Source: Inonotus obliquus
Lineage: Eukaryota; Basidiomycota; Agaricomycetes; Hymenochaetales; Hymenochaetaceae
DNA length: 64,000 bases
NCBI GenBank assembly: GCA_032164295.1
Contig: JAJHTX010000010.1
Location: 62,001-126,000, forward strand
Direction of reading: 5' to 3'
Part shown: positions 3,287-25,011 of the stretch, in pieces
How positions within the stretch are numbered: position 1 is the stretch's first letter
Layout of the letters: each line of letters starts with the position of its first letter
Position numbers and translations under genes: made by a program
The notes under the pieces: generated by a model
Database searches by the model: none
What the model was told of the DNA's origin: nothing
The model's input: only the letters and a program-made list of their open reading frames with translations

Positions 3287-3814
3287 CTTTCTCCTCTGAA
3301 GTGGACTCCCGTCTACGGCATATCCACATGATGACTCCCAGGACTCCAACGAGACTTTGGGCCTGTTTCGTTTCGAAAATGAATGAGGCGTGAAATCATA
3401 ATAAGATTTCTGTCTCACTACTTTTATACAGTGCACCACTTACAAAGATCCAGCCCGTTGTTTCGGCCCTATTCGAGCATCAAGACGAATGGAGCGGGAG
3501 GCAGGAGATAATGTTCACTGTTGGACAGTCTCGATAATATATGTATCCGACCATCCGTGTTCGCACAAAAAAAACGAAGATGATACGCAGGAGGATGACT
3601 ATGAAGCTGGGGTAGATTGCTCTTGCAGTTATGCAGATACGCCTCATCGCCGCTCGAAAGGCGGAGATCGGAGCGGTCATCATGACACACCCTCCCTTTT
3701 TGCAAGGAGTTAGATGCGCAATGCAATTCACACACGTTTCACTTCCTAACATGCGCAATACTCACAAGTGGCTGCTAAACAACAGCAAGCCGGGTGAGAT
3801 GAGGATGTCTCAAT

Positions 3815-4915
3815 AACCATTTTCCAGATGTGTACAGAATGACTCGCAAACCCGCCATCTGTGAGGAGCCCCATGAGTATAAGAAGGAAAGCATAGTACG
3901 GACCAACACATTCCACAGATGTACACACCGCAGCCCTTGGAAGAAGGTGCTACCCGAAGAATGACTCTGTTACTTTCGCGACTCTCAACTTGTAACTCGC
4001 AACCGGTCTGTCGTCCTCCTCCATGGTCACGCAGCGTGCTCACCGGACTGGACGCGTACATCCAGCCCCGTCAACGATCCCAGGATAACCTACCAAGATC
4101 CGTCAGATCCATATACGATTGAATGACAGCCCGAGGCGATCGGTAGAGAGTTATGTGATTGAGAGAGAGACGCCTGACACGATCATTCTCCCCAGGCCTA
4201 TTATCCATGGTAGATGCACGGGAACCGAATCAGGGCCTAGGTATGGCATGTGAGAGACAGAATATTTGAATGTAGCGGTGAGGAAGCCATTAACAGGGAT
4301 GAAACCATTCCGTCGCTCCCAAGCCCCAACAATGAGACGTCGAATTTCGAATTGCATTGCGGCTGGATCGTAACCCTTGCAGGTGCTGTATGTAGATGAT
4401 AGCAAAGATTCGAAGAATTAGACGCAGGTACTCTGGATTGTGCTGCTATGATGGATCAAACCGTTGTACAGGGTGAGGGAGTGAAGAAGCCGTAGACGAT
4501 GGCGAAGGAGGGTATACACCTATGTGTTCGGTCCACGGTGTCGGAGCTTTGCGAATTTCGAATTAGCCACTGCGGGCAACGACGGCATTTCCTTCAAGTT
4601 GTACTGATCATTTCGGATGGGATTGTGGACCAGTAAGTAGCTGGAGACGGAGGGCGAGGAGGGCGAGAATGTGGTGTGACACGTCTTCTCTCGCTGCCGA
4701 TGCAAACAAGTAATATTGTAATGTATCAAATGCAGCTCGCCTACTTTGCAACATCAGTTCTTATCAGCAAACACTACATGCGAGTACTAGTTCTCCTAAA
4801 ATTGGGAATCGGTCTGCAGAGTCCCAAGGATCCTGGTGGCGTTCAGCTCGCAAAGAACGTTATCATATGTCACACACGTTTGACATGTCATGATACTTTG
4901 CATCAAGCTACAAGC
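3815..4915. repeat. Conserved ~1.1 kb spacer upstream of gene A1
   Basis: This block recurs upstream of each A gene (also 6725-7885, 11892-13119 and 17461-18755). It is near-identical between R1 and R2 and diverges by small indels in R3 and R4. Open frames on the minus strand are short and are shifted between copies by indels, so most of the block looks non-coding. It ends in the TATA box of the A gene. Confidence 0.65.
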
Positions 4916-4923
4916 TATATAAA
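4916..4923 (+). promoter_or_regulatory. TATA box of gene A1
   Basis: TATATAAA sits 100 bp before the chosen A1 start codon, inside a conserved CATCAAGCTACAAGC context. The same box lies at 7886, 13120 and, as TGTATAAA, 18756 upstream of the other copies. Confidence 0.6.
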
Positions 4924-5015
4924 CGCCCTCCCTTTCGCCCCAGGTATGCTTCCTCCAATAACAACGTACACTCAAAGCACCTACCTAGTGATCACCGCTG
5001 CTTTCCAAGGCATAA

Positions 5016-6270
5016 ATGTCCGGAGCCCGAGCCCGAGCAACGGGAAGTGACAGGGTCAAACTCGTGCGTGAGGACAGGACAAAATATATAAATGAAATGG
5101 AAGAAATAAACCCAGACGAATATAATACCCTCGTTAATTGTCTGTATCTTCTCAGTTCTTCTAGTTTGAAGGGCTAACATACTATTTCAGATGCTAAAAA
5201 CAATGAATACACCCTTCAAGCTGGTAAGGTCCAGGACGACTCGGAAGAAGAGAAGTTCGCGGTTTTATTACTAAGTGGCTCGTACCAATTGAAGCATGGG
5301 AGGGGTGTAGAACGTACGTTGAAGGATGCTATGGCTGTGCTCGTCAAATGGACAGAAAAGACCCCATGCGGTACTATCATCTCAGTTTCTCCTAATTTGA
5401 ACAGGGGCTAACATAAGAAGCAGCGGAGTCCAGACTCAAACGTGTAACTGATCGTAAACTTCTAGACAAAATGAAAGCCTTCGAAACTGAAAGGTTAAAA
5501 GAGAGTTTGTATCATGTCATTTTCTACTGATTTGAATAGGAGCTAACATACAACTTAAGTTGCTAAAGTGAAAAACTGGACACTTTGCCTTTATGAATGT
5601 GAGGGAGGGTCCCTGGTGGTTCAATTTAGAGATAGTTATCGCAAAAAAGTGGGCACGGAGGGTTCAGGCCGTACAGTGGAGGAAGCGATAGACTCGATTG
5701 ACTTGGTAACCTTGGATGAGCAATTGGCACGCCAGCCGAAAAAACCCAAGAAGAGTGCCAGTGACACGGGAGCGCGTGAAAGTCGTTTGACACCGAATGC
5801 ACCGGAAGCACCCCAAAAAGGCAGGACATCTGTATCATCTCTCATTTGAGTAGGGGCTGACATACCACTAATGAAGCCCTGAACAAGACATCCGAGTCAA
5901 TGTCCCAATCCTTCGTGAGATTGGAACATTGGAAGAAACCGGTATCCAAAAAGGATGAACAGAAAATAAATAATCACAAACATATCAAACATCTCAATGC
6001 AGGTCTGTATCATCGCAGTCTCTCCTGATTTGAATGGGGGCTAACATATATACCACTTCAGTCGCTAAATCGAGAGGATTAGAGTTTGATCACTATTGGG
6101 TCTATGTGAAGGAGGTGCGGAAGACGTTCGAGGTCTGTTTTACCAAGAACAGTGTTGAGCTGCCTGGAACCAGAGTTTCAGCCTCCACAGTGGCGGACGC
6201 TCTTGATAGGCTCAACAGCGCGTCATCTTTGATCAGCGCGTCGATCTTACCCAATGTAACTCCTATATAA
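5016..6270 (+). pseudogene. Gene A1, modular-exon family member with a damaged splice junction
   Basis: Exons read: 5016-5139, 5191-5370, 5424-5504, 5560 to about 5825, about 5875-6002, and 6062-6270. All intact junctions are phase 1. Exon 1 begins MSGARARATG and already ends in the YINEME tail seen at the ends of modules in A2-A4. Exons 2, 4 and 6 each carry the family module: hydrophobic strands followed by a helix (ERTLKDAMAVL, GRTVEEAIDS, ASTVADALDRL). After exon 4 the usual GTCTGT donor reads ATCTGT and the TTCAG acceptor is lost, so readthrough would stop at 5849. Exon 5 stays in phase only with a shifted acceptor near 5874. A1 is therefore probably truncated or decaying, although alternative splicing could rescue it. 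No known function is recognised. Confidence 0.6.
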
Positions 6271-7885
6271 TCTATTATGATTCATATGTTTTCTCGTCTT
6301 CGAATATTGCTTCCCAACAGTATAATCGACCTGTCTTGTTTCGAAGAATAAGAGATTTCCGTCTCACTGCTTTGTATCAAAGTTCGAGCTCGCCGTTTTG
6401 GCCCTATTCGAGCATCAAGACGAATGGAGCAGTCTCGATAAGATATGCATCCGACCATCCGTGTTCGCACGAAAAAAAACGAAGATGATACGCAGGGAGG
6501 ATGGCGATGAAGTTGAGGGATCCTTAGACCGAACAGGATAGATTGCTCTTGCAGTTATGCAGTTACGCCTCATCGTCCGGAGCGGTCATCACGACACACC
6601 GTCCCTTTTTGCAAGGAGTTAGATGTGCAATGCAATTCACACACATTTCACTTCCTAACATGCGCAATACTCACAAGTGGCTGCTAAACAACAGCAAGCC
6701 GGGTGAGATGAGGATGTCTCAATAACCATTTTCCAGATGTGTACAGAATGACTCGCAAACCCGCCATCTGTGAGGAGCCCCATGAGTATAAGAAGGAAAG
6801 CATAGTACGGACCAACACATTCCACAGATGTACACACCGCAGCCCTTGGAAGAAGGTGCTACCCGAAGAATGACTCTGTTACTTTCGCGACTCGCAACTC
6901 GCAACCGGTCTGTCGTCCTCCTCCATGGACACGCAGCGTGCTCACCGGACTGGACGCGTACATCCAGCCCCGTCAACGATCCCAGGATAACCTACCAAGA
7001 TCCGTCAGATCCATATACGATTGAATGACAGCCCGAGGCGATCGGTAGAGAGTTATGTGATTGAGAGAGAGACGCCTGCCACGATCATTCTCCCCAGGCC
7101 TATTATCCATGGTAGATGCACGGGAACCGAATCAGGGCCTAGGTATGGCATGTGAGAGACAGAATATTTGAATGTAGCGGTGAGGAAGCCATTAACAGGG
7201 ATGAAACCATTCCGTCGCTCCCAAGCCCCAACAATGAGACGTCGAATTTCGAATTGCATTGCGGCTGGATCGTAACCCTTGCAGGTGCTGTATGTAGATG
7301 ATAGCAAAGATTCGAAGAATTAGACGCAGGTACTCTGGATTGTGCTGCTATGATGGATCAAACCGTTGTACAGGGTGAGGGAGTGAAGTAGCCGTAGCCG
7401 ATGGCGAAGGAGGGCATACACCTATGTGTTCGGTCCACGGTGTCGGAGCTTTACGAATTTCGAATTAGCCACTGCGGGCAACGACGGCATTTCCTTCAAG
7501 TTGTACTGATCATTTCGGATGGGATTGTGGACCAGTAAGTAGCTGGAGACGGAGGGCGAGGAGGGCGAGAATGTCGTGACAGTTGTGGGCTATTCTGCTG
7601 GATAGCCAGTTGTGTCCCGACAGTGACACGTCTTCTCTCGCTGCCGATGCAAACAAGTAATATTGTAGTGTATCAAATGCAGCTCGGCTACTTTGCAACA
7701 TCAGTTCTTATCAGCAAACACTACATGCGAGTACTAGTTCTCCTAAAATTGGGAATCGGTCTGCAGAGTCCCAAGGGTCCTGGTTGGCGTTCAACCAGCA
7801 CTCGCAAAGCACGTTATCATTTGTCACACACGTTTCCCTAGCTGGCATTTGCTATGGCGCCACATTGCATGATCAAGCTACAAGC

Positions 7886-7893
7886 TATATAAA
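7886..7893 (+). promoter_or_regulatory. TATA box of gene A2
   Basis: TATATAAA lies in the same CAAGC context as in A1, 62 bp before the A2 start codon. The shorter distance reflects a deletion of the CCCTTTCGCCCCAGG segment present in A1 and A3. Confidence 0.6.
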
Positions 7894-7947
7894 CCCGTCC
7901 TCCAATAGCAACGGACACACCCTCCTATACATCACCACTGCTTTCCA

Positions 7948-9345
7948 ATGCCGCGCACAAATGAAGAGCGAAATAAGTATTATCGTGAACGAAGGGCGCT
8001 CCGATATTGTCTGTAATCATCCCAGTTTCTCCTACTTTGAATAGAGTGCTAACATACCACTTCAGTTGGTTACAAGCACAAGTATAGGCTCGTAGTAGAG
8101 TATCGGGACAAGAAAACGTGTGTGTGTGAATTTATACACAAAGGAACCGTGAAGCATACTGCTTCAGGCATGACAAAGAATGAAGCTCGTGAGATGCTCT
8201 ACATTGAAGTACGAGAACAGTTAGAGAAGGAAGTGAAAGAAGGATTGCTGTACATCCTCGAAGATGTGAAGGATGAAGATTGTATAAATGAAATGGAGAA
8301 CCATGATAATTATGATTTATTCTCGAAGTGTCTGTATCATCTCATTTCCTCCTAATTTGAATAGGAGCTAACATACAACTTCAGTTGCTGATAAGATTAA
8401 CTATACACTTAAGCTTTGTAAGGTTAGGGATGAGGGTGATTGGTTCGTGATTCTATTTAGAGATAAGAAAAGCAATATAATGGGCGAGGAGGGTTTAGGC
8501 GATACAGTGACGGAAGCTATGGATTCGAAAGAGCTCCTAGGTTATGTAAATGAACGGATGGGAAACCCTGAATCGAAAGAGGAGCAGACATCAGACAGTA
8601 AATTGACACCAGAAAGAGGAGCATCAAATAAGCAAAAGGGAGAAATGTCCAAAGGAGGAAAGCCGACATCTAGTATGATCTTCTCAGTTTCTCGTCATTT
8701 AAATAGGGGCTAACATACCAACTTGAAGCCAGTATATTGACACCGGAAGCGGGAATTAAGCGTGTCAGTAGATCGACGCCACCAGGAACGTCCAAAAGAG
8801 GAAAGCCGACATCTAGTATGATCTTCTCAGTTTCTCCTAATTTCAATAGGGGCTAACATACAACTTCAGCAATGACGTCCGGCCGAACTAACCGTGACCG
8901 GCGTGACAGTCGTCAGACATCAAACCGACAGAAAGCTACTCGTACTAGTAAGGGTAAAGAGAAAATACGTCTGTATCATTCAATAAGGGCTAACATACAA
9001 CTTCAGCTGCGACACCGGGAGCAACAACGTCGGATAACAAGACACAAGAGCAGTTCGAGGATGATCTCGCAAATAGTGAGGCCGCCGCTGAGTGTCTGTA
9101 TCATCTCACTTTCTCCTCATTTCAATAGGGGCTAACATACCACTTCAGTTCTTCGCCGTCATCATGGATATGAAATTAACATCTATCAGGACGACCACGA
9201 TAAGCTCTTTTATCAAGTAGCATTTCCCAATCCCAGATTAAAGCCAGACCAACAATGTTGGGATTTTTATAGCCTCAAGGAGCTCGAGGACTGGATAAAT
9301 GAAGGATTCCGTGTAGAGGGTAATACATATATCGAGGGACTGTGA
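7948..9345 (+). CDS. Gene A2, modular-exon family protein
   Basis: Exons as read: 7948-8008, 8066-8329, 8385-8672, 8728-8815, 8870-8968, 9007-9093 and 9149-9345. Exon 1 is short and basic (MPRTNEERNKYYRERR). Exon 2 has the clearest module: alternating hydrophobic strands, then HTASGMTKNEAREMLYIEV, ending in the INEMENHDNY tail. Exon 3 has GLGDTVTEAMDSKELLGYV and an SKLTPE linker. Exons 4-6 are short, Thr/Ser/Lys-rich linkers. The last exon (LRRHHGYEINIYQDD onward) is another strand-helix module ending at TGA 9345. Introns are phase 1 except that I could not confirm the frame across exon 4. The fifth intron is only 38 bp. The product is probably soluble; no signal peptide or membrane segment is seen. 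Confidence 0.55.
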
Positions 9346-9754
9346 TAGTTCAGATCCTGGATTGGTTTCATCGGGTTGATAACATTCTCATTTCTATTGA
9401 ATCTAGAATTATTTATACCGCCGCGAAGGTTTTTGCACGCGCCCCAGGCCTAGGGTGACGTTTTTCCCTTCTGTCTAATCGGCGAGTCCGTGAGCTCTAT
9501 TTATTTAGTTATGCCTTTGTAGTTACATCAGATTACGATGTTTTAGTTACTTTTTCAACTAAATTGGTCGATCCTGTCACGTCGATCTTACCCTTTCTTT
9601 ATACACAGGGTGACAATATAAGGTTTCTCTCGTCTTCGAATATTACAATCGACCTCTCTCGTTTCGAAGAATAAGATTTCCGTCTCACTGCTTCAAGTTT
9701 GTACCGTGCACCACTTTCAAAGTTCCGGCCAGAAGGAGGAGATCAGGTTGATCA
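9346..9754. other. Intergenic spacer between A2 and the USO1 fragment
   Basis: This AT-rich downstream sequence of A2 leads into the repeated TTTCGAAGAATAAG / CCGTCTCACT segment that marks the start of unit R3. No gene is seen. Confidence 0.5.
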
Positions 9755-10556
9755 CCATGCTTAGATTGAGAAGACTAGAAAATCGAGGTGGATCGACTCG
9801 ACTCGCGAAAAGCGACTAAAGAAGCGTGACGACATCAAATACTTGCTGATCAAAGGCTCTTGAAGGGCCGGAATATAGGACTTGGGTCCATTTAAACAAT
9901 CGATAATATGTACACTCGTCGCATGACACACGGAAGAGCGGTTTTCATTCCTTTTCGTAGTACGAAGGAGGTACTGGATGAGCCGTCCTTCCGGCGAACT
10001 GCCTTTATCCTTATAGTCCATCGGACTAGTAGAGTGATTCAAGAGAAGAATTTCAGGCTGTGGTGCTGAACTCACTTCAGCAGAAAGGTCGCCAACAAAA
10101 TTGGCACTGCCTCGCGTCTGCGTGGGGAGTATCATTAACATGAGATATTGGCGGCATACAGAGGAGTAATCCTTATACAGGCTGAAGCGAGTCGTAAAGT
10201 GGCTTTAAAGGCCGTATATCGACGATGATCGGGCCAAGCCTACGACTCTAAGAGAAGAGGTCTCGAAGAAGTTGGATCTTTTCCTGGAATATTACTATGT
10301 AAGCTGCTGAGGTCGTCCACGAGTCCAAATGTGGCGAATGCTGTGTTATTTACAACCGGAACTGCACAGGGTCCTGATATAAACTAAAAAAGGCTGCCAC
10401 ATAGCTGTTCAACTGTATCGTCAACGCTCACTAATGCAAACAATCGACGATGCTCTCGTGTGCGCGTGAATGGTGTACTGCTTGCCATGCACAGTGTAGA
10501 ATGACGACAAGTTGATACAAAAACACGTACAAAGGATCAACGGGACAGACTATAAT

Positions 10557-11891
10557 TCATTCTTCGTCATCATCATCGCCATCTCCTTCATCCTCCGACA
10601 CTTCCAGTCCAGCCTTCCTCATAGTCTCCTTATCTCCTCTCCTCTTCGCACTCAGCTCGTCCAGAAGCACAAGGAGATCCTCGTGCTCTTTCTCCACGTC
10701 AGCGCTCTTCTGCTTCGCGTTCTTCAGCTCCGCTCTTAATGATTCGACCTGCGACTTCAGATCGGATATCTGAATACCCAAATGAATGACTTCGTGAGTT
10801 AATGTCGTGTTCTGTACAAGGAAGAGTAATCTTCACCTCAGCAGACGAAGCAGCAGTCGCAGATGCGATCCGTTTCTGGATATCTCCCGACTATTATCAA
10901 TTATCAGTACAGGGTAGATGAAGAACGGAGAGAAACAGTGACGTACCTCGGTCTGTTTGGTCAACTGAGCGGAACTCAGTTGCCGTTGGAGCTCCTCTAT
11001 CTGAGCAGCCTGTTTCCTTATAGCATCTTGCGGGGAGGCGATTTGCATGGCTGATTCCGCATTTTCTCCTTTTCTTCGAGTTAGATTTTCGCAAGAACAA
11101 GAAAAATAGGAAAAATAGACCTGATGTCGCGCTGAGAGTATCGGGATCCAATGTAACAGCACGCTGGATTGTATCTATAACCAGACTATGCTGAGTCGAT
11201 GTAACTTCAATAAGAATCACAACGGACGTACAATAGTTGCTCTTCCAAAAGTCAACAAACGGCCAGTCTACCCAGATCTCAACTTCCGGGTCTTCCTGAC
11301 CGTCCGGTCGGGCGGGTGCTGAATGTAACGCTGGAAATCGGTATGGAAGGATGATTTCCTCAGGTCCAATCGCTTTGAAACGCTCATCCTCGCGAACTCG
11401 TGCCATACATCCATTAAGCGCGTCGGCACTCAGTCGTGATATTATTGAGTGAATTGTTGGCCTATGAACGGGCAAGAGTAAGCAGTCGGGACTAGGAAGC
11501 CATTCAGGTCAGCATTCAGGTCGGGGAAGCGCACCGAGTGATCTCGCCGGATTCACGGTTGAACTCATAGCATATGCCGAGCAGGAAGGCGCACAGGCCT
11601 TGGACGAGGGGATCTACGTTGCTAGTCTGATTAATCGACTCCACGAGCTAGGATTCGGATGAGAACATGGACATCAAACAGAAAACTCCACCCACCGTAC
11701 CAAGCCCTCCACTTTCCAGGAAGTCACGGACTGCCTTTGGATGATCCCAAAGCCATTGTGAGAAAAGCGCAAGATATACGACGATCAACCGAACCCACTC
11801 TCTAGCGTCTCGCTCGGTCTCCGCTGATGCCGCATGTGCCCGGGAGAGGAACACGAGCGACAGGTGCTCAGCCAGCAAGACAATGAGCGTC
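10557..11891 (-). pseudogene. USO1 3' fragment, copy 1 (promoterless)
   Basis: The sequence is nearly identical to 21857-23179 of the complete USO1 gene. It retains the end of the armadillo-like head (LFSQWLWDHPKAVRDFLESG, VDWPFVDFWKSNYC), the coiled coil (AAQIEELQRQLSSAQLTKQ) and the acidic tail (EDEGDGDDDDEE). It starts abruptly at 11891, after CAATGAGCGTC, where unrelated spacer begins; the N-terminal half and promoter are missing. Exon reading frames and splice sites still look intact, which suggests a recent duplication. It is non-functional as USO1, although a truncated transcript cannot be excluded. Confidence 0.8.
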
Positions 11892-13119
11892 AATCACCAT
11901 TTTCCAGATGTGTACAGAATGACTCGCAAAACTCGTCATCTGTGAGGAGCCCCATGGTACGGGTCAGCACAGACCACAGATGTACACACCTAAACCCTTG
12001 GAAGAAGGCATCACCCGAAGATTGACTTTGTCACTTTCGCGACTCGCAACTCGCAATCTGTCTGTCGTCCTTCTCCAAGATCATGCAGCGTGCTCATAAT
12101 ACTGAACGCGTACATCCAACCCCGTCAACGATCCCAGGGTACCCTAGCAAGGCCCGTCGTATCTATTCACGACTGAACGGCAGGTGGTAGAGAGTTTTGC
12201 CTACGTACCTATTCATAACCCGTAGGACGGACAGGTAGTCGCAACGGAGAGACGAAGGCATGTGACGATCGATCGGGCCAGGCCTACTATTCATGGTAGA
12301 TGCACGAGAGCCGAATCAGGGCTTGGGTATGGTTTCAGCATGTGAGAGACAGAATATTTGAATGTAGCGGTGGGGAGGCCATTACAGGGGATGAAACCAT
12401 TCCGTCGCTCCCAGCAATGAGACGTCGACTTTCGAATGACCTTGGCTGATAGCGTGAATTGGACGCAAGCCTGCAACAGCTTCCGCTACCAGGATGTCCC
12501 AAACTACTGAGCAGGGCGAGTGAAGGGGCCGGTAGTGAAGGATGGTATACATCTGGACGTACGGTTTACAGTGTCGGAGCTCAACGAATTTCGAATTAGC
12601 CACTGCGGGCAATGGTCCAAATGAGAGTTGAAAAATGACGCACCAGGGGAACACTGCTCCTCGGCCCGTTCGCAGTTTCGACAGCGACGGCATTTCCTCC
12701 AAGTTGTAATGATCATTTCGGATGCGATTGTGTGATTAGGATGATTTTGCATTGTAGCTGGAGAGGGCGAGTTCCAAGGAGTGAGAGGGAGAAACACGAG
12801 AGTGTCGAGCGGGCTATTCTGTCGAGTAAGGCTGTTCATTACTACAAGAGTCATCTAATCATTGATGGTAATACCTGTGATGGCATGATGCCCCAGATGT
12901 GTCGCCACAGTACTGTCACGACTCGCTGCCGATGCAATATTGTAACGTACCAAATGCAGCTCGCCTACTTTGCAACTACACTACTTGCGAGTACTAGTTC
13001 TCGTCAAATCGGTCAGGAAACAGGAAATCGGTCTGCAGAGTCCCAAGGGTCCTCGCAAAGCACGTTATCTAATTTTGCACGTGCCACGTACTTGCCATAC
13101 TTTGCATCAAGCTACAAGC
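11892..13119. repeat. Conserved spacer upstream of gene A3
   Basis: This is homologous to 3815-4915, 6725-7885 and 17461-18755. Compared with R1/R2 it contains about 75 extra bases around 12620-12690, which extend a Cys-rich minus-strand frame (see separate entry). Confidence 0.6.
12504..12752 (-). CDS. Small Cys-rich frame, divergent from gene A3 (doubtful)
   Basis: From an ATG at 12752 (MQNHPNHTIASEMIITT) the frame gives about 82 residues with CRRCRNCERAEEQCSPG, a spacing like the second half of a Zn2Cys6 cluster (C-x2-C-x6-C), and further cysteines downstream. The counterpart in R4 (18102-18383) keeps the same cysteines and adds one (CRKCRRCRNC), though its C-terminus is shifted. In R1 and R2 the core is deleted. 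It lies about 460 bp upstream of the A3 start on the opposite strand. It could be a degenerate remnant of a zinc-cluster gene or a chance frame. Confidence 0.3.
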   Translation of the reverse strand: MQNHPNHTIASEMIITTWRKCRRCRNCERAEEQCSPGASFFNSHLDHCPQWLIRNSLSSDTVNRTSRCIPSFTTGPFTRPAQ

Positions 13120-13127
13120 TATATAAA
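13120..13127 (+). promoter_or_regulatory. TATA box of gene A3
   Basis: TATATAAA lies in the conserved CAAGC-box context, 97 bp before the A3 start codon. Confidence 0.6.
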
Positions 13128-13216
13128 CGCCCTCCTTTCGCCCCAGGTATGCTTCCTCCAATAACAACGTACACTCAAAGCACCCTCCTATACATCACCA
13201 CTGCTTTCCAACACCA

Positions 13217-15034
13217 ATGGTTGAAAGGGAAACATACAACAGGTATCGTCGTCAATATAGGGCGCTGAATAAATGTCTGTAATCATCCCAGTTTCTCCTA
13301 CTTTGAATAGAGTGCTAACGTACCACTTCAGATGGTAAGGAGAAGGGTTATGAACTTCGAGAATATTCAGTCAATGAAACGCACGTGTCTGAATTTGTAT
13401 TAAAAGGAACCCATGATGTGAAGCATACTGCTTCAGGTGAGACAAAGTATGAAGCTTGTGCGGGACTCTGCGATCAAGTAGGAGTACAGATAGAGACGAA
13501 GACGAGGCCCATACTCCAAGCTGTGAGGAGTCCTTGGCTTGAAAATAAAATGGAAACCCATAAGTATTATGAAGCCTTCAAGAAATGTTGTATCATCTCA
13601 TTTTCTCCTAATTTGAATAGGAGCTAACATATAACTTCAGTTGCTGATGCGAATGATTATGTGATTCGCCTTTATGATCCTGAGGGTGAGGAAGGGTTCC
13701 GGGTTCTTATTAGAACTCAGAAAAAATCCTCAATAGTGTGCGGGGGGTCAGGCCCTACAGTGGAGAAAGCTATGGAATCGAAAGAGCTCGTAGATTATGT
13801 AGATGAAAAGACGGGATTCCTAGAAACACTGAGAAAGGAAAGGGCGCAGACATCAGCCAGTAGATCGACACCGGAAACGTCCCAAAATACCAATAAGCGT
13901 ACCAATAATAGTTTGACACCACCACAGGAAGCAAGACCGTCCAAAACAGGAAAGTCGACATCGGGTAAAAAGAGTATGGAGAGAGAGACTAGTCAGCATC
14001 ATCTCAGTTTCTCCTCATTTGATAGGGGCTAACATACCGACTTCAGATGAGAAGAACAAGACAATGCCCCGAACTGGCAGATCAACCATGACGTCCACAA
14101 AAATAACTACACAAGAAAGACATGAGATGATGGATAATCCTCATTATAATGAAACCCTCGAACCATGTCTGTACCAGTTCTCCTAATTTGATTAGGGGCT
14201 AACATACCACTTTAGATCGTGAAGAGAAAAAGTATAAGCTCGTTCCTCTTCGGAACGATGTGGGCGACTTCGAGCTTAGATATGAGACCGAACGTGGCCA
14301 TCTAGTGGCGAGTGGATCAGGGACTACAGTGGCGGATGCTATTGAAAATCTCTGCAAGTGGGTTAAGGGTGCCACGAAGAAGACATTGGTATCCTTGAAA
14401 AAGGGGAATAAAGCGGTATCCGAAGAGGATAGACAGGAAATAAAGAATTACGATGACATCGGCCAAATCAATTCATGTCTGTGTCATCCCAGTTTCTCCT
14501 AATCTGATAGGGGCTAACATACCACTTCAGTTGTTAAACCGAGAGGATATAAATTAGGTTGCTATTGGAATTTCATGGATGAGTTTGTGGTCTTCTTTAA
14601 AACCAATACCAAATCTACAGTGAAGGACTCCATAGTTATAGGCTTCACAGTGAAGGAAGCTCTTGATAAGCTCCTTAATTGGGTTAATAAGGAGAAGGAG
14701 AAGGAAGCCAGTAGATTGACACCGGAAGCAATATCAACGGCCATGATGGACAATACTAAGGATAAAATGGAGGAACATTTGCATTTTCGTACTTACAAGA
14801 TCAATAAATGTCTGTATCATCTCACTTTCTCCTTATTTCAATAGGGGCTAACATACCACTTCAGTTCTTAGCAATAATCCTGGATATGCATTTGAGCACT
14901 TTCGCAGAAATGGAAAGCTCGTGCTTCAAATATTAGACATCACCGGCACTCCAGTAAAGGTAGGTGAGGGGTTTTCAGATAAAGAAGCCATTAAGGATCT
15001 CGAGGACAAGATAGATGATCCGTCTCCATGGTGA
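13217..15034 (+). CDS. Gene A3, intact modular-exon family protein (about 497 aa)
   Basis: Seven exons: 13217-13274, 13332-13586, 13641-13991, 14047-14166, 14216-14476, 14531-14809 and 14865-15034. The joined frame is open throughout, every internal exon is a multiple of three, and all introns are phase 1 and 49-57 bp. Exon 1 is unique (MVERETYNRYRRQYRALNK). Exons 2, 3, 5, 6 and 7 each carry one module: a Tyr-x-Leu strand, an F-x-V strand, and a Gly-rich turn leading to a helix (HTASGETKYEACAGL, GSGPTVEKAMESKELV, GSGTTVADAIENL, GFTVKEALDKLLNWV, GFSDKEAIKDLE). Exon 4 is a Thr/Lys-rich linker. SRLTPE-type linkers follow several modules. The module outline loosely recalls the beta-beta-beta-alpha half of a dsRNA-binding domain; that is inference. 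No signal peptide, membrane segment or enzyme motif is seen. Confidence 0.75.
13275..14864 (+). repeat. Near-identical intron family in gene A3 (six copies)
   Basis: Introns at 13275-13331, 13587-13640, 13992-14046, 14167-14215, 14477-14530 and 14810-14864 share a GTCTGTATCATC start (with variants), a TTTCTCCTAATTTGA core, and a GGGGCTAACATACCACTTCAG-like end holding a CTAAC branch site. Copies of the same intron family occur throughout A1, A2 and A4. The intron identity exceeds that of the flanking exons by eye. Confidence 0.85.
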
Positions 15035-16116
15035 AGGAAAGGATCAAAAAAAATGATTATATCATGTGATACTTCAGATCCTGTCTTATGTCATACTTGA
15101 TCGTCAATATAAATTATTCAACAACAAATTGCGTAGTGCCATTTCATGGTATCATAAGTGAGATTGCATGACAGTACTGCTTCGTACCGTGCACCACTTT
15201 CAGAGATCCAGGCAGGACATAATGTCAGCTGGCGGTCTAATGTATCCAACCATCCGTGTTCGCAAGAAAAACATAAAGATGATACGCAGGAAGATGACTA
15301 TGAAGTTGGGGTGGATTGCTCTTGCAGTCATGCAGATACGCCTCAACGCCTTTCGAAGATGAAGGTCATGATTGTGAAGTTACGGGTTAGGGGTACCTTA
15401 TTACATAACCAATCAGGGTTGAGTTGTGCTTCGTCGCCTTGATCACCATGCTTAGATTGAGAAGACTAGAAAATCGAGGTGGATCGACTCGCGAAAAGCG
15501 ACTAAAGAAGCTTGACGACATCAACTACTTGCAGGTCAAAGGCTCTTGAAGGGCTGGAGTATAGGACGTCTGGGTACACACGCATACGGAGGAGGTACTG
15601 GATGAGCCGTCCTTCCGGCGAACTGCCTTTATCCTTATAGTCCATCGGACTAGTAGAGTGATTCAAGAGAAGAATTTCAGGCTGTGGTGCTGAACTCACT
15701 TCAGCAGAAAGGTCGCCAACAAAATTGGCACTGCTTCGCGTCTGCGTGGGGAGTATCATTAACATGAGATATTGGCGGCATACAGAGGAGTAATCCTAAT
15801 ACAGGCTGAAGCGAGCCGCAAAGTGGCTTTTCGGCCGTATATTGACGATGATTGGGCCAAGCCAACGACTCTTAGAGGTCTCGAAGAAGTCGGATCTCGG
15901 CGATTGCTGCGTTAATTACACCCGGAACTGCACAGGGTCCTGATATAAACAAGAAAAGGCTGCCACATAGTTGTTCAAATGTATCGTCAACGCTCACTAT
16001 CAATCAACGATGCTCTCGTGTGCGCGTGAATGGTGTACTGCTTGCCATGCACAGTGTAGAATGACGACAAGTTGATACAAAAACACGTACAAAGGATCAA
16101 CGGGACAGACTATAAT

Positions 16117-17460
16117 TCATTCTTCGTCATCATCATCGCCATCTCCTTCATCCTCCGATACCTCCAGTCCAGCCTTCCTCATAGTCTCCTTATCTCCTCT
16201 CCTCTTCGCACTCAGCTCGTCCAGAAGCACAAGGAGATCCTCGTGCTCTTTCTCCACGTCAGCGCTCTTCTGCTTCGCGCTCTTGAGCTCCGCTCTTAAT
16301 GATTCGACCTGCATCTTCAGATCGGATATCTGAATACCCAAATGAACGAGTTCGTGGGTTAATGCCGAGTTCTGTACACGCAAGAATAATCTTCACCTCA
16401 GCAGACGAAGCAGCAGTCGCAGATGCGATCCGTTTCTGGATATCTCCCGACTATTATCAATTATCAGTACAGGGTAGATGAAGAACGGAGAGAAACAGTG
16501 ACGTACCTCGGTCTGTTTGGTCAACTGAGCGGAACTCAGTTGCCGTTGGAGCTCCTCTATCTGAGCAGCCTGTTTCCTTATAGCATCTTGCAGGGAGGCG
16601 ATGAGCATGGCTGATTCCGCATTTTCTCCTTTTCTTCGAGTTAGATTTTCGCAAGAACAAGAAAAATAGGAAAAATAGACCTGATGTCGCGCTGAGAGTA
16701 TCGGGATCCAATGTAACAGCACGCTGGATTGTATCTATAACCAGACTATGATGAGTCGATGTAACTTCAATAAGAATCACAACGGACGTACAATAGTTGC
16801 TCTTCCAAAAGTCAACAAACGGCCAGTCTACCCAGATCTCAACTTCCGGGTCTTCCTGACCGTCCGGTCGGGCGGGTGCTGAATGTAACGCTGGAAATCG
16901 GTATGGAAGGATGATTTCCTCAGGTCCAATCGCTCTGAAACGCTCATCCTCGCGAACTCGTGCCATACATGATACATCCATTAAGCGCGTCGGCACTCAG
17001 TCGTGATATTATTGAGTGAATTGTTGGCCTATGAACGGGCAAGAGTAAGCAGTCGGGACTAGGAAGCCATTCAGGTCAGCATTCAGGTCGGGGAAGCGCA
17101 CCGAGTGATCTCGCCGGATTCACGGTTGAACTCATAGCATATGCCGAGCAGGAAGGCGCACAGGCCTTGGACGAGGGGATCTACGTTGCTAGTCTGATTA
17201 ATCGACTCCACGAGCTAGGATTCGGATGAGAACATGGACATCAAACAGAAAACTCCACCCACCGTACCAAGCCCTCCACTTTCCAGGAAGTCACGGACTG
17301 CCTTTGGATGATCCCAAAGCCATTGTGAGAAAAGCGCAAGATATACGACGATCAACCGAACCCACTCTCTAGCGTCTCGCTCGGTCTCCGCTGATGCCGC
17401 ATGTGCCCGGGAGAGGAACACGAGCGACAGGTGCTCAGCCAGCAAGACAATGAGAGCGTC
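16117..17460 (-). pseudogene. USO1 3' fragment, copy 2 (promoterless)
   Basis: This is a second partial copy of the USO1 C-terminal half. It has the same content and breakpoint as the fragment at 10557-11891, plus small differences: an extra AG near the breakpoint (TGAGAGCGTC) and a 6-bp duplication (ATACATGATACATCC) at about 16970 that alters one exon. It keeps the coiled coil and the EDEGDGDDDDEE tail. It lacks the N-terminal head and any USO1 promoter. Confidence 0.8.
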
Positions 17461-18755
17461 AATCACCATTTTCCAGATGTGTACAGAATGACTCGCAAAA
17501 CTCGTCATCTGTGAGGAGCCCCATGGTACGGGTCAGCACAGACCACAGATGTACACACCTAAACCCTTGGAAGAAGGCATCACCCGAAGATTGACTTTGT
17601 CACTTTCGCGACTCGCAACTCGCAATCTGTCTGTCGTCCTCCTCCAAGATCATGCAGCGTGCTCATAATACTGAACGCGTACATCCAACCCCGTCAACGA
17701 TCCCAGGGTACCCTAGCAAGGCCCGTCGTATCTATTCACGACTGAACGGCAGGTGGTAGAGAGTTTTGCCTACGTACCTATTCATAACCCGTAGGACGGA
17801 CAGGTAGTCGAAACGGAGAGACGAAGGCATGTGACGATCGATCGGGCCAGGCCTCTTATTTATTAGATGCACGAGAACCGAATCAGGGCTTGGGTATGGT
17901 TTCAGCATGTGAGAGACAGAATATTTATATGTAGCAGTGGGGAGGCCATTACAGCGGATGAAACCATTCCGTCGCTCCCAACAATGAGACGTCGACTTAC
18001 GACTTGTGCTGCAGCTGGATCGTGCCCGCCTGATAGCGTGAATTAGACGCAAGCAACAGCTTTGCCGTCACTGGTACTCTGGTTTGCGCTGCTATGATAG
18101 ATCAAAACCGTTGCACAGGCGAGACTCCGACGTGGTGTGAGGGAGTGAAGTAGCCGATGGCGAAGGAGGGTATACACCCATGTGTTCCGTCCACGGTGTC
18201 GGAGCTCAACGAATTTCGAAATAGCCACTGCGGGCAATGGTCCAAATAAGAGTTGAAAAATGACGCACCAGGGGAACACTGCTCCTCGGCCCGTTCGCAG
18301 TTTCGACAACGACGGCATTTTCTGCAAGTTGTAATGATCATTTCGGATGCGATTGTGGAACAGTGATTAGGATGATTTTGCATTGTAGCTGGAGAGGGCG
18401 AGTTCCAAGGAGTGAGAGGGAGAAACACCGAGAGTGTCGTGACAGTTGCAGTGCTCAGTACTAAAGGCTGCTCTACAACGATTCAATGATGCCCAATTGT
18501 GTCGCCACAGTGTCACGTCTCGCTGCCGATGCAAACAAGCAATATTGTAATGTACCAAATGCATACGTTTGTTGACACTACTTGCGAGTACTAGTTCTCG
18601 TCAAATCGGGATCCCTATCCGTGCTCGCTCAGGAAACAGGAAATCGGTCTGCAGAGTCCCAAGGGACCTCGCAAAGCACGTTATCTAATTTTGCATATGT
18701 CACACACGTTTGACTGGTCATGCGTACTTGCCATACTTTGCATCAAGCTACAAGC
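17461..18755. repeat. Conserved spacer upstream of gene A4
   Basis: This is homologous to the spacers of the other three units and closest to that of R3. It holds the R4 version of the Cys-rich minus-strand frame (18102-18383). Its 3' end carries the CATCAAGCTACAAGC box and TATA element of A4. Confidence 0.6.
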
Positions 18756-18763
18756 TGTATAAA
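18756..18763 (+). promoter_or_regulatory. TATA-like box of gene A4
   Basis: TGTATAAA stands in the position of TATATAAA in the other copies, 96 bp before the A4 start codon. One base differs from the others. Confidence 0.5.
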
Positions 18764-18851
18764 CGCCCCAGGTATGCGTTTTCCAATAACAACATACACA
18801 CTCTCCTATAGATCACCACTGCTTTCCAAGACATCAATTCCCAAAAACATT

Positions 18852-20941
18852 ATGGATAAAAAGGTGTATCAATTTCATGGGCGGGCACTCGATAAATGTC
18901 TGTAATCATCCCAGTTTCTCCTACTTTGAATAGAGTGCTAACATACCACTTCAGATTGTGCCGAGAGGGGTTATAAACTTTTGAAGGACAGGAATGCAGA
19001 CGGAGATCATGTGCTTAGTCTTCAACCCAATGATTTTAATCGGAATAATTATACTGCTTCAGGCAAGACACAGTATGTAGCTCGTGCAAAACTCTACGCT
19101 CAAGTAGAAGAACAGATAGAGACGATGAGGAAGACGAAGCCCAATCTCAAAGCTGTGAAGGATGAAGATTGTATAAATGAAATGGAGACCCATGATAATT
19201 ATGAGTTATTCTCGAAGTGTCTGTATCATCTCATTTTCTCCTAATTTGAATAGGAGCTAACATACAACTTCAGTTGCTAAAGAGAGAGAATTGAAACTTA
19301 TGCTTTATGAGCTTGTGGAAGGGTTCACTATTCAATTTAAAACTAGAAATAGACATAGAGTGGGCCCGGAGGGTTTAGGCAATACAGTGAAGGAAGCTAT
19401 GGATTCAGAAGAGCTTGTAGATTATGTAAATAATAATAGATTGAAGGAAGAAGCATCAAAGCCCAAAGTCAAAGCTGTGAAGGACCCAAAGTATATAAAT
19501 GAAATGGAGACCCACAATAATTATGAGTTATTCTTGAAGTGTCTGTATCATCTCATTTTCTCCTAATTTGAATAGGAGCTAACATACAACTTCAGTTGCT
19601 AAAGAGAGAGAATTGAAACTTATGCTTTATGAGCTTGTGGAAGGGTTCACTATTCAATTTAAACATCAGGACACTCATAGAGATAGACGTAAAGTGGGCC
19701 CAGAAGGTTTAGGCAATACAGTGAAGGAAGCTATGGATTCAGAAGAGCTTGTAAAGTATGTAGATAAAAGGGCACAGACATCAGCCAGTAGATTGACACC
19801 AAAAACATTCAGAGGCCAAGAAAAAGCATCAAATAACCGTACCAAAACAGGAACGTCAACATTGGGTACTACAGGTAAAAAAAGAATGGAGAGAGAGACT
19901 AGTCAGTATCATCTCAGTTTCTCCTCATTTGATAGAGGCTAACATACCGACTTCAGTTAAGAACAAGAGATCCGAGATAATGCCCCAAACTGGCAGATTA
20001 ACTGTGACGTCCACAAAAATAACTACGCAAGAAAGACATGAGATGCTGAATGATTCTTGTTATAATGAAACCCTCGAACCATGTCTGTACCAGTTCTCCT
20101 AATTTGAATAGGAGCTAACATACCACTTCAGATCGTGAAGAGAAAAAGTATAAGCTCATTCCTCTTCGGAATGATGTGGGCGACTTCGAGCTTAGATATG
20201 AGACCGAACGCGGCCATCTAGTAGCGAGTGGATCAGGGACTACAGTGGCGGAGGCTATTGAAAATCTCTGCAAGTGGGTTAAGGGTGCCACGAAGAAGAC
20301 ATTGGTATCCTTGGAAAGGGGGAATAAACTGGTATCCGATCAGGATAAACAGAAAATAAAGAATTACGATGACATCGGCCAAATCAATTCATGTTTGTGT
20401 CATCCCAGTTTCTCCTAATTTGATAGGGGCTAACATACCACTTCAGTTGTTAAACCGAGAGGATATAGATTAGGTTGCTATTGGAATATCATGGATGAGT
20501 TTGTGGTCTTCTTTAAAACCAATACCAAATCTACAGTGAAGGACTCCATAGTTATAGGCTTCACAGTGAAGGAAGCTCTTGATAAGCTCCTTAATTGGGT
20601 TAATAAGGAGAAGGAAGCCAGTAGATTGACACCGGAAGCAATATCAAAGGCCATGATGGACAATACTAAGGATAAAATGGAGGAACATTTCCATCTCATT
20701 ACTGACACAATCAATGATTGTCTGTATCATCTCACTTTCTCCTTATTTCAATAGGGGCTAACATACCACTTCAGTTCTTAGCGATAATCCTAGATACAAA
20801 TTTGAGCACTTTCGCAGAGATGGAAAGCTCGTGCTTCAAATATTAGACATCACCGGCACTCCAGTAAAGGAAGGTAAGGGGGTTACAGATGAACAAGCTA
20901 TTAAGGATCTCGAGCAAGAGATAAATGATCACATATGGTGA
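18852..20941 (+). CDS. Gene A4, intact modular-exon family protein (about 569 aa)
   Basis: Eight exons: 18852-18897, 18955-19218, 19274-19540, 19596-19901, 19957-20082, 20132-20392, 20447-20719 and 20775-20941. The joined frame is open throughout, with phase-1 introns of 49-57 bp. Exon 1 is unique (MDKKVYQFHGRALDK). Exons 2, 3, 4, 6, 7 and 8 carry the strand-strand-helix module (e.g. ASGKTQYVARAKLYAQV, GLGNTVKEAMDSEELV, GSGTTVAEAIENL, GVTDEQAIKDLEQ). Exon 5 is a Thr-rich linker. A4 matches A3 exon by exon except for its extra exon 3. That exon begins like exon 4 (identical for about 65 bases) and ends like exon 2 (the INEMETH tail), as expected from unequal crossing-over. Its 3' neighbour is USO1 in convergent orientation. 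Confidence 0.75.
18898..20774 (+). repeat. Near-identical intron family in gene A4 (seven copies)
   Basis: Introns at 18898-18954, 19219-19273, 19541-19595, 19902-19956, 20083-20131, 20393-20446 and 20720-20774 belong to the same family as those of A3. The first intron of each A gene is a distinct subtype (TAATCATCCCAG start, ACTTTGAATAGAGTGC core), so intron identity partly tracks position. Confidence 0.85.
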
Positions 20942-21856
20942 AGGAAAGGATCAAAAAAAAAATTATATCATGTGATACTTCAGATCCTGTCTTATGTCAT
21001 ACTTGATCGTCAATATAAATTCAACAACAAATTGCGTAGTGCTGTATCATGATGTCCACTGGCAGTCAGTCTCGATAGGGTATGTATGATGTATCCGATC
21101 ATCTGTGTTCGCAAGAAAAACATGAAGATGATACGCAACTATGAAGTTGGGGTAGATTGCTCTTGCAGTCATGCAGATACGCCTCAACGCCTTTCGAAAG
21201 ACGGAGATTGGAGGAAGATGGTTATGATTGTGAAGCTAGGGGTTAGGGGTACCTTATTACATAACCAATCAGGGTTGAGTTATGCTTCGTCGCCAGGTGG
21301 GTTGATCACCATGCTTAGATTGAGAAGACTAACAAATCGAGTTGTGTACACTTGTCGCATGCCACGGAAGAGCAGTTTTCATTCCTCATAGTCCATCGGA
21401 CTAGTAGAGCGATCGAAGAGAAGAATTTCAGGCTGTGGTGCTGAACTCACTTGAGGAGAAAGGTCGCCAACAAAATTGGCACTGCCTCGCGTCTGCGTGG
21501 GGAGTATCATTAACTTGAGATATTGGCGGCATACAGAGGAGTAATCCTAATACTAAGAGGTCTCGAAGAAGTCGGATCTTTTCCTGAAATATTACTATGT
21601 AAGCTGCTGAGGTTGTCCATGAGTCCAAATGTGGCGAATGCTGTGTTATTTACAACCGGAATTGCACAGGGTCCTGATATAAACTAAAAACGGCTGCCAC
21701 ATAGCTGTTCAAATCTATCGTCAACGCTCACTAATGCAAACAATCAACGATGTTCTCGTGTGCGCGTGAATAGTGTACCGCTTGCTATTCACAGTGTAGA
21801 ATGACGACAAGTTGATACAAAAACACGTACAAAGGATCAACGGGACAGACTATAAT

Positions 21857-24800
21857 TCATTCTTCGTCATCATCATCGCCATCTCCTTCATCCTCCGACA
21901 CCTCCAGTCCAGCCTTCCTCATAGTCTCCTTATCTCCTCTCCTCTTCGCACTCAGCTCGTCCAGAAGCACAAGGAGATCCTCGTGCTCTTTCTCCACGTC
22001 AGCGCTCTTCTGCTTCGCGCTCTTCAGCTCCGCTCTTAATGATTCGACCTGCGACTTCAGATCGGATATCTGAATACCCAAATGAATGAGTTCGTGAGTT
22101 AATGTCGTGTTCTGTACAAGGAAGAGTAATCTTCACCTCAGCAGACGAAGCAGCAGTCGCAGATGCGATCAGTTTCTGGATATCTCCCGGCTATTATCAA
22201 TTATCAGTACAGGGTAGATGAAGAACGGAGACAAACAATGACGTACCTCGGTCTGTTTGGTCAACTGAGTTCCGCTCAGTTGCCGTTGGAGCTCCTCTAT
22301 CTGAGCAGCCTGTTTCCTTATAGCATCTTGCAGGGAGGCGATGAGCATGGCTGATTCCGCATTTTCTCCTTTTCTTCGAGTTAGATTTTCACAAGAACAA
22401 GAAAAATAGGAAAAATAGACCTGATATCGAGCTGAGAGTATCGGGATCCAATGTAACAGCACGCTGGATTGTATCTATAACCAGACTATGATGAGTTGAT
22501 GTAACTTCAATAAGAATCACAACGGACGTACAATAGTTGCTCTTCCAAAAGTCAACAAACGGCCAGTCTACCCAGATCTCAACTTCCGGGTCTTCCTGAC
22601 CGTCCGGTCGGGCGGGTGCTGAATGTAACGCTGGAAATCGGTATGGAAGGATGATTTCCTCAGGTCCAATCGCTCTGAAACGCTCATCCTCGCGAACTCG
22701 TGCCATACATCCATTAAGCGCGTCGGCACTCAGTCGTGATATTATTGAGTGAATTGTTGGCCTATGAACGGGCAAGAGTAAGCAGTTGGAACTAGGAAGC
22801 CATTCAGGTCAGGGGAGCGTACCGAGTGATCTCGCCGGATTCACGGTTGAACTCATAGCATATGCCAAGCAGGAAGGCGCACAGGCCTTGGACGAGTGGA
22901 TCTACGTTGCTAGTCTGATTAATCGGCTCCACGAGCTAGGATTCGGATGAGAACATGGACATCAAACAGAAAACTCCACCCACCGTACCAAGCCCTCCAC
23001 TTTCCAGGAAGTCACGGACTGCCTTTGGATGATCCCAAAGCCATTGTGAGAAAAGCGCAAGATATACGACGATCAACCGATCCCACTCTCTAGCGTCTCG
23101 CTCGGTCTCCGCTGATGCCGCATGTGCCCGGGAGAGGAATGCGAGCGACAGGTGCTCAGCCAGCAAGACAATGAGCGTCTGAGGCTCGTCTTCGGCGGCT
23201 CCCTCTTGAGGAGTAGATTCCTGCGCAGTTGACGGAGGACCATCGGCTGGTACGAAGAACTGGTGCGTGGACGATGCAGAGCTTGTTGCTGGCTTCAGTT
23301 GCGTAGCTAGCTGCTTACACCGTGAAGATGATCGGATCAGAGAGGTGAACAAGAACGTTGCAAGTTGAGTCGATAACAGAGAAGATGGATTTAGTGGTGA
23401 AGTCGGTGGTATTGCAAGCGCTTGTATCAGGGAAGGAGTTGGACGGGCAGCGTTCGGGTCTATGATGGACATTAATATCGGCACCTCATAGTGCAACAGT
23501 CACCACACACCTTCGTTCGGTAACATCGCTTGCAGAATCATAAGTCTCAGATCCTCTTTCCGGGTATAGTTCTAGTAGATGTTTGCAACAGTCTCGTTTC
23601 GATTTCAGTTTCCACGTACCTCAAAGACAGTAGCACCGGCCGTCCGCAGCACAAGGGTTTCTTTCGCTTTCTGCTTTGTCTCAACGGCGGCGCTCGTTCC
23701 ATATTCACCGAGGACCACCAGGTCAATCAGGGCATCAAGCGCGACGATAGGTTCTAATCGATCCCATTCCTCGCCGCTCGTGTCGGGAACGGGTAAGTAC
23801 GGCGTTAGCATATGCGAGATTAACGGGAAATATAGGTTTGCTGGAAGAAGTTGAAGAGCCTGATTGGCTAGATTAAGCAGCTTCAGACGAAATCGATGAA
23901 GTCATCCGTACCTGAGTTTTCACAGAGGTAGGGGCGTTCGAAGCGAGCGAGAGCTCGACAAAACACCTAAGCAATGTGTTGGTTTCTACTTCCTGTGTGT
24001 CTTTAGAACAAGATAATTGACGATCATTCGAGCTCTTAGACGCACATTGGAACCTTTCGAACCGATCAACAACCCAAGAATTCCCACGACTAGCTTCACG
24101 TTTGAAGCTTTCTGTGTGTCCCAGAATTGCAGCGCAAACTCCTGTGGGGCGGGTTCTTGAGGTGGAAGATTTAGGGGAAAGAGGAGTTGAGAGGTGAGAA
24201 ACCCGACTAGCCCGGTTTCGCGAAAGAACGTTTGGTTGGACAGGTTCAGACGCAATAACCCATCGACGCACGTCAGACAGTCTCGAACAGTTGGCCCGCC
24301 ATCAATACCTCCTTCCTTTTGTATCAGACCAAACAATTTGTCGAACGCGCCTTCGAAGGCAAGAAGCTTCTGGATGTCGGGGCTTTGCGAAGTAAGCAAC
24401 TGTATGAGAATCAATCCCTCTACAAAGCATGAGCATACTATCGATCTATGCCTCTTCGACTTACCGTTACGGATTATTTCCCTCCGGTTATCCAGCGTAG
24501 TCAACACATTGGCTGGTGCGTCCTGCGCTTTGAGGAAATACGATTGAACGAGTTGCCTGCGATTGTGCAAGAGCGTGGCAAGCAGCTGAAGAGCCGCATA
24601 CTTCACGTAGAAGTTCTGGTCGCCCAATAGTACAAATAGCTTTTGAGCCGGTTTCTCGGTTTTGAGCACCTCGTCCGAATACTTGAGGGCAAGTGCTTTG
24701 CTTTCCGCTGGAGGACTCGCATCGCCCACGTCACATAAGGCATGCAAAGTCTCCAAGACAGCCTTTGCGATCTCAGAGTCAATTTCAGCATCATTCCCGA

Positions 24801-25011
24801 GCACCTCGAGAAGGCCAGAAAGGGCCTGCTCTCCCACTTCAGCCCTCCAATCTCGCGACAGGCCCTTGAGGGACAATACGGCGGCACGTCGGTCCGCTAG
24901 CAACGTGGACGGTGATAGACGGCCCGCTAATCGTTGGATGGTCTCCAGAGGAGACTGGGGAGCCCCTGTTGGCCCTCTGAGAGCATTATAGGTCTGGGAG
25001 AAGAAGTCCAT
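21857..25011 (-). CDS. USO1: General vesicular transport factor Uso1/p115
   Basis: This complete gene encodes the golgin-type tether that captures ER-derived COPII vesicles at the Golgi. The start at 25011 (MDFFSQTYNALRG) matches the family N-terminus; an in-frame upstream ATG at 25062 gives an atypical extension. The head has armadillo-like helices (RRAAVLSLKGLSRDWRAEVG, NFYVKYAALQLLATLL, GLLRLNLSNQTFFRE, LALFSQWLWDHPKAVRDF, FVDFWKSNYC). A coiled coil follows (AAQIEELQRQLSGTQLTKQ, VESLRAELKSAKQKSADVEK), then the conserved EDLLVLLDELSAKR segment and an acidic tail (EDEGDGDDDDEE). At least ten exons are apparent, e.g. donors after 24465 and 23605. The coiled coil is far shorter than in yeast Uso1, closer to animal p115. 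Its 3' half is the source of the two fragments in the array. Confidence 0.92.

Follow-up and report, generated by a model that had tools for sequence, protein, structure and literature searches.

A dispersed family of phase-1 exon modules in Inonotus obliquus with similar introns and diverged exons

What kind of gene family keeps its introns nearly unchanged while the exons between them diverge? The question is raised by four neighbouring genes, A1 to A4, in a 64,000-nucleotide stretch of the Inonotus obliquus genome (bases 62001-126000 of contig JAJHTX010000010.1, here C10; hereafter the window), which we analysed together with the whole assembly of 36.07 Mb on 30 contigs, where 5.8S rRNA was searched for and not found. 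The main signal, absent from an earlier note on this DNA, is an excess of amino acid change together with mosaic exons amid conserved introns. With moderate confidence, we favour the reading that the array belongs to a family of symmetric phase-1 modules, dispersed in the genome, that would encode intracellular binders engaged in an evolutionary conflict.

Family structure and the contrast between introns and exons

In the window, A2, A3 and A4 have open reading frames in which every intron is in phase 1 and every internal exon is a multiple of three. Phase 1 is the only stop-free forward frame in 13 of the 16 internal exons of these genes, the other two frames holding 3-14 stops each (the test covered these 13 exons and left out three short linker exons of A2). 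Donors mostly read GTCTGT, and a branch-point-like GCTAAC motif lies near the acceptor. The window introns were picked manually, with frame as one of the criteria, and the frames then checked by script, so that the window alone is no independent test.

Across the genome, the 3' part of the intron gave 68 matches at up to three mismatches and the 5' part 40 matches, versus 0 in each control (reversed for the 3' part). We retrieved 23 regions around matches outside the window and one overlapping it, and with a profile built from 22 window introns found one to nine family introns in each region except L029 on C6, which has none; by recount, the profile introns cover 67 of the 68 3'-part matches and all 40 of the 5'-part matches. 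The result is a set of 31 gene loci on eight contigs (C2, C3, C4, C5, C7, C10, C11 and C12); the counts leave out L032, which belongs to the window, and that section of L010 that overlaps L011. Of the 55 internal exons in these loci 52 are multiples of three (binomial against 1/3, p ~1e-21), donors and acceptors having been set by rule save for three hand-set window introns in A1 and A3. The automatic rule finds 24 of the 31 loci open, some of which are short or have doubtful starts and one of which is A1 with its odd intron (see below). The four-gene array of the earlier note is indeed present, but it is one site of a dispersed family rather than the whole of it. C10 and C11 carry 21 of the 31 loci, and C4 and C5 have others close to their starts.

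Most members have the TATA promoter and the 5' leader in common, and their short first exon is followed by one to seven others; the exons measure about 80-480 nt, and the introns are mostly 49-63 nt long, in phase 1 and very similar. The promoter 16-mer AAGCYATATAAACGCC was found at 26 places in the genome with at most one mismatch, versus 3 in the reversed control, and 25 of these are followed by a family intron at a distance of at most 600 bases. The 26th (L033, C11:999000-1005000) is a remnant of promoter and leader that runs into unrelated repetitive sequence. This GGTCCGGTCC-type repetitive sequence stands directly after the promoter, and a similar-looking translated stretch precedes the first intron of L020 (C11:1011500-1018500); the two are possibly one mobile or satellite-like insertion.

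The mean pairwise identity of 82 family introns on the eight contigs is 84% (3 of 85 introns, outside 45-64 nt, were left out). Such likeness is described for introner-like elements (PMC4457414), and mobile introns inserted repeatedly would yield exon symmetry as a by-product. We regard this origin as very improbable: of the 68 motif matches at up to three mismatches, the one that does not fall on a family intron (on C6) lies in a region without any, phase is the same in 52 of the 55 internal exons, the promoter element, too, is common to family members, and the first introns of A2-A4 and several other loci form a subtype of their own, kept across contigs, that fits inheritance by gene duplication.

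Compared with the introns, the modules between them have a mean amino acid identity of only 21% (2395 pairs among 71 modules, 14 of 85 intron-module records having been dropped as linker exons, broken joins or too-short pieces). The same contrast appears between A3 and A4, which were compared per exon and per intron and not base by base. Over the six introns summed, 315 of 324 bases are identical, and the values for the USO1-like flank and for distant intergenic DNA are 1420/1440 (98.6%) and 98.1%, versus 52-65% for exon 1 (depending on the alignment), 163/255 (64%) for exon 2 and 67-69% for exon 3; exon 4 stands at 87%, exons 5 and 6 at 95% and exon 7 at 87%.

A4 has one exon more than A3, gained through duplication of an intron-spanning unit. 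Copy 1 (19137-19433, + strand; tail of exon 2, intron 2 and core of exon 3) and copy 2 (19459-19767, + strand; tail of exon 3, intron 3 and core of exon 4) agree in 278 of 309 columns (90%), and beyond 19767 exon 4 resembles the tail of A3 exon 3, making it a mosaic exon. The breakpoints lie inside exon linkers and not in introns, so that the phase-1 introns keep the frame without being observed breakpoints. The earlier note had proposed that symmetric phase-1 modules can be reshuffled; the symmetric design is supported, but the one clear gain within the array, that of A4, does not show the introns to be the joints. A duplicated unit of tail, intron and core fits a domain whose first helix precedes the intron. 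Exon and domain probably do not coincide, and the helix that opens each domain is probably encoded by the tail of the exon before it.

Selection, silent change and alternative explanations

An unselected census took in all module pairs that reach 40% amino acid identity. In 28 of these 35 pairs the codon-model ratio of nonsynonymous to synonymous change (dN/dS) exceeds 1; the median is 1.82, and seven pairs are significantly above 1. Fast change, as in recognition or conflict genes, is found, and to that extent the interpretation in the earlier note is supported. A mean dN/dS close to 2 across entire exons is uncommon and is a hallmark of genes in open conflict. Previously, all 11 of a series of exon sets had given values above 1 (1.47-4.24, five with p < 0.05), but these sets were hand-picked and omitted pairs with dS above dN, such as the L010 tandem pair and A4 exons 3/4, and for that reason all pairs at or above 40% amino acid identity were tested instead, with a weaker result, by which the favoured reading lost a little weight to neutral decay and concerted evolution. 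A combined p = 0.0013 is not relied on, since the six sets behind it were picked once results were known. Core residues of the module are kept (Ala in 66 of 71 modules, Leu in 93%), and the remaining positions are variable.

How much of the exon divergence is silent was judged at codons that encode the same residue. In four pairs at 50-60% amino acid identity about 4 of 110 such codons (3.6%) differ silently, where saturation would give 61% and the introns differ by 15%; in pairs above 60% amino acid identity the silent sites and the introns have diverged to a similar degree. At same-residue codons silent change is therefore far below saturation, and much of the exon excess is amino acid change. 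Near-saturation in Nei-Gojobori (NG86) estimates had suggested that the introns are abnormally conserved relative to silent sites, an idea that was dropped in view of the same-residue codons. Silent change does exceed intron change in A3/A4 exon 2 and in the most distant pairs, which show 0.36-0.38 silent differences per codon versus 0.17-0.18 at intron sites.

A number of observations weigh against the reading of a module family in conflict. In the census, 7 of the 35 pairs have a dN/dS of 1 or less, and for one of them, A4 exons 3/4, the value is significantly lower than 1 (omega 0.37, p 0.018; the tails are of different origin); the 35 pairs share sequences and hence are not independent, and most are not individually significant. 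By NG86, dN exceeds dS in just 16 of 22 pairs, the exceptions being exon 3 of A3 with exons 3 and 4 of A4 (A3e3/A4e3, A3e3/A4e4), A4e3/A4e4, A3e5/A4e6, the L010 tandem pair and L019e3/L021e3. Exon 2 of A3/A4 shows silent change in 7 of 36 same-residue codons versus 2 of 111 in the introns (p = 0.0008), which makes amino acid selection alone insufficient, so that either an exchange of exons or a homogenising of non-coding DNA has to be invoked; no donor for an exchanged exon was found. The DNA near A3 and A4 is less conserved than their introns and has many gaps (identity is 83% in 12401-12916, 91% for the promoter and 89% and 80% for the 3' flank), so that the idea of a fixed scaffold fits the introns, the promoter element and the distant flanks best. 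Seven of the 31 loci fail, the frame being interrupted in five and the start not found in two. Finally, the family looks young and lineage-restricted, but for the restriction the sole basis is word-based searching.

The failing loci, the odd intron of A1 and the many single-pair tests that do not exclude a dN/dS of 1 would all suit neutral decay, with a recently duplicated, non-functional family whose exons drift free. We consider this improbable, as 24 of the 31 loci pass the automatic rule as open, the hydrophobic core is retained where other positions change, and dN/dS is above 1 in four fifths of the census pairs, significantly so in seven.

Concerted evolution is an alternative of another kind, in which gene conversion or crossing-over would homogenise introns, promoter element and flanks around old exons that selection keeps different, the family being older than its introns suggest. 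It would account for NG86 dS values of 0.47 and 0.53 in A3/A4 exons 2 and 3 between flanking introns that are 96-98% identical, for the difference in A3/A4 silent divergence between exons 2+3 and exons 5+6 (Fisher p = 2e-9), and for the silent excess in the most distant pairs. Conversion tracts would, however, have to end near splice sites repeatedly, and neither the similar silent and intron divergence in pairs above 60% amino acid identity nor the separate subtype that first introns retain across contigs is in line with it. As an explanation of the whole pattern we hold concerted evolution to be rather unlikely.

Predicted fold, possible role and known parallels

The exon modules are predicted to adopt a beta-beta-beta-alpha arrangement, as in the folds of double-stranded RNA-binding domains (dsRBDs), HicB and HPF. 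The first module that was folded with AlphaFold2 (20134-20391, + strand) has predicted strands at residues 7-12, 18-23 and 29-35 and a helix at 38-51, with pLDDT confidence scores of 70-82 by blocks of ten over residues 1-50; the second (19276-19539, + strand) has strands at 7-13, 16-22 and 28-35 and helices at 38-42 and 45-60, with scores of 86-94 by blocks of ten over residues 11-50. The predicted core topology may be shared with dsRBD, HicB, HPF/YfiA and YegP/DUF1508 proteins, to which no significant sequence or structure match was found. Of the alpha-beta-beta-beta-alpha topology of a dsRBD the beta-beta-beta-alpha part is predicted here, the modules having been folded without the tail of the previous exon, the site of a putative first helix.

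Together with this core, the frequency of dsRBDs among the weak structural matches (Rnt1p, RDE-4, DCL4, TRBP, Staufen) could point to RNA-binding proteins of dsRBD type that act in RNA silencing or antiviral defence, an explanation that we think unlikely. The usual carrier of RNA binding in a dsRBD is the KKxAK motif of its second helix; none of the 71 modules is basic at both KK positions, none at all three, and two are basic at the first K and the K after Ala. Among the Pfam-A matches listed for 37 spliced modules (a subset of the 71; E <=10), 11 first modules and 17 exon modules there was no dsRBD. RNA binding by the modules may still be possible, though they lack KKxAK.

The earlier note had recognised no named family, and in agreement with this a Pfam search with A3, A4, the first 204 aa of A2 and these three module sets returned nothing credible. 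In A3, A4 and the first 204 aa of A2 it found neither a NACHT/STAND NTPase nor WD40 repeats. Matches of single members, for example to Staphostatin_A (E 0.0021), were put down to chance. NCBIfam and PADLOC, searched with the 37 spliced modules, matched single members weakly (Csm3 0.006), and PDB sequence profiles reached E < 0.01 solely for designed repeat proteins, without any individually significant stretch; UPF0339 (0.11) and Loquacious (0.17) were not significant. One module used as query against a plasmid collection gave no match. In a set of 5.8 billion proteins, neither A4 (E <=1) nor the alignment of 37 modules (E <=10) found a match. A USO1-like gene next to the array had 269 matches in the same set with up to 85% identity, so close relatives of a neighbouring gene are contained in it, but the search needs shared 5-residue words and fast-evolving relatives could therefore be missed.

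For 23 open proteins (one further open protein of 45 aa was dropped) the maximum 19-residue mean hydropathy is 1.19, and 0.64 within the first 40 residues, taken as a proxy for a signal peptide; they contain 0-6 cysteines each. By hydropathy there is no apparent sign of a signal peptide or a membrane helix. A signal peptide is a feature of secreted effectors such as those of the bicycle kind.

Three known systems show similar behaviour. Viperid three-finger toxin genes undergo 'accelerated segment switch in exons', with introns highly similar among paralogues and exon segments replaced or changed under a kept fold (PMC2474615). The likeness is in this exon/intron contrast, that is in evolutionary mode only and not in homology: those are snake venom toxins with conserved cysteine positions and three exons, whereas the fungal proteins here consist of several modules, contain few cysteines and give no apparent sign of a signal peptide. 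Aphid bicycle genes are a sequence-novel family recognised by its structure of unusually many small exons and under strong positive selection; phase-2 exon number is a positive predictor, and the products are putative effectors expressed in salivary glands (PMC9168663). Novelty of sequence, many small exons, recognition via gene structure and strong selection are common to both, but here the exons are in phase 1 and of about 80-480 nt, no signal peptide is apparent and the introns themselves are very similar. The HNWD/NLR non-self recognition genes of Podospora are described as STAND NTPases with WD40 repeats that are gained, lost and diversified (PMC2873952; PMC1805685). They too form an intracellular fungal family with repeated, diversifying modules that come and go; the modules of the present family differ in being separated by introns and, in the proteins searched by Pfam, in the lack of a STAND or WD40 domain. 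All three systems are behavioural parallels and not relatives. A literature search found no description of this phase-1 module family, whose members may be annotated elsewhere as hypothetical proteins.

If the array does belong to a family of intracellular binders in conflict, its genes would be spliced and expressed, and their products would be intracellular strings of small beta-beta-beta-alpha domains with linkers. Exposed surfaces would be re-selected repeatedly against a changing partner (non-self, a virus, a mobile element or a rival), and new domain strings would arise through domain duplication and exon exchange. We infer a role of this general kind from sequence, in which non-self recognition, defence against viruses or elements and drive-type conflict are not separable. 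A more specific proposal can be put forward tentatively: the family may be an undescribed fungal recognition repertoire of about 30 intracellular proteins, built of repeated dsRBD-like domains that are each split by a stereotyped phase-1 intron, in which a fixed scaffold of promoter, leader and introns carries exons diversified by selection, exchange and duplication, giving open-ended binding strings against viruses, mobile elements or non-self.

Among fungi, the repertoires in open conflict that are known best consist of NLR-type recognition genes and of secreted effectors. A modular family that appears to be intracellular, lacks a recognised NTPase and has very similar introns amid diverged exons would solve the problem differently. 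By their stereotyped promoter element and intron, family members can be traced in related species even when the protein sequences are beyond recognition, and in this way module birth, exchange and loss become directly measurable.

Gene models and neighbours of the array

All four genes of the array lie on the + strand. The TATA promoter element of A1, AAGCTATATAAACGCC (4912-4927), matches the family 16-mer exactly. The gene itself (5016-6270; exons 5016-5139, 5191-5370, 5424-5504, 5560-5760 (uncertain), 5877-6002 and 6062-6270, by splice model and translation) is open only if intron 4 is taken as the 116-nt stretch 5761-5876 with an atypical donor, and A1 may be decaying. The promoter element of A2 was located at 7882-7895 by sequence and scan. 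A2 (7948-9345; exons 7948-8008, 8066-8329, 8385-8672, 8729-8815, 8870-8968 or 8870-8947, 9007-9093 and 9149-9345) is open over 353 or 360 aa given an AAG acceptor at 8726-8728 for exon 4; its intron 5 has two possible donors, giving 38 or 59 nt and phase 1 either way.

The A3 promoter element (13116-13131) is again an exact match to the 16-mer. A3 (13217-15034) encodes 497 aa in seven exons (13217-13274, 13332-13586, 13641-13991, 14047-14166, 14216-14476, 14531-14809 and 14865-15034). Its 57-nt intron 1 (13275-13331, GTCTGTAATCATCCCAG...GCTAAC...CAG) exemplifies the first-intron type, and the other family introns lie at 13587-13640, 13992-14046, 14167-14215, 14477-14530 and 14810-14864, all placed by nhmmer and alignment. 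A4 has the promoter variant TGTATAAA (18752-18767), with one mismatch to the 16-mer. The gene (18852-20941) has eight exons (18852-18897, 18955-19218, 19274-19540, 19596-19901, 19957-20082, 20132-20392, 20447-20719 and 20775-20941), and its introns, placed by splice model, nhmmer and alignment, are intron 1 at 18898-18954 and the others at 19219-19273, 19541-19595, 19902-19956, 20083-20131, 20393-20446 and 20720-20774. We took its length as 569 aa, the 595 aa of the automatic scan stemming from an upstream ATG. The TATA boxes that the earlier note placed before each gene are thus all found, as are the maintained frames over the seven exons of A3 and the eight of A4; its statement that intact introns are in phase 1 and internal exons multiples of three holds for A2-A4, A1 being open only with its odd intron.

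Among the neighbours is, on the minus strand, a USO1/p115-like gene for a vesicle tether (Pfam PF04869, E 2e-7), for which an apparent full gene, not assembled, was seen at about 21741-25077. Two truncated copies belong to the tandem repeat unit, one between A2 and A3 (10441-11880, - strand) and one between A3 and A4 (16001-17440, - strand), with approximate limits taken from repeat families. Over the stretches compared, the two copies share 98.6% identity and their identity to the gene is 97.0%, by which the duplications of the array unit look recent. Further neighbours are an aminotransferase class V exon and a Cwf15/Cwc15 gene. Just 5' of the array a WD40-repeat fragment (2840-3286, + strand; Pfam WD40 E 4.9e-7) could be the remnant of a WD40 gene. 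The DNA upstream of A1 (3669-4600) and of A2 (6578-7500) is identical at 914 of 925 positions (98.8%), and despite this the first exons of the two genes align at just 24 of 57 bases.

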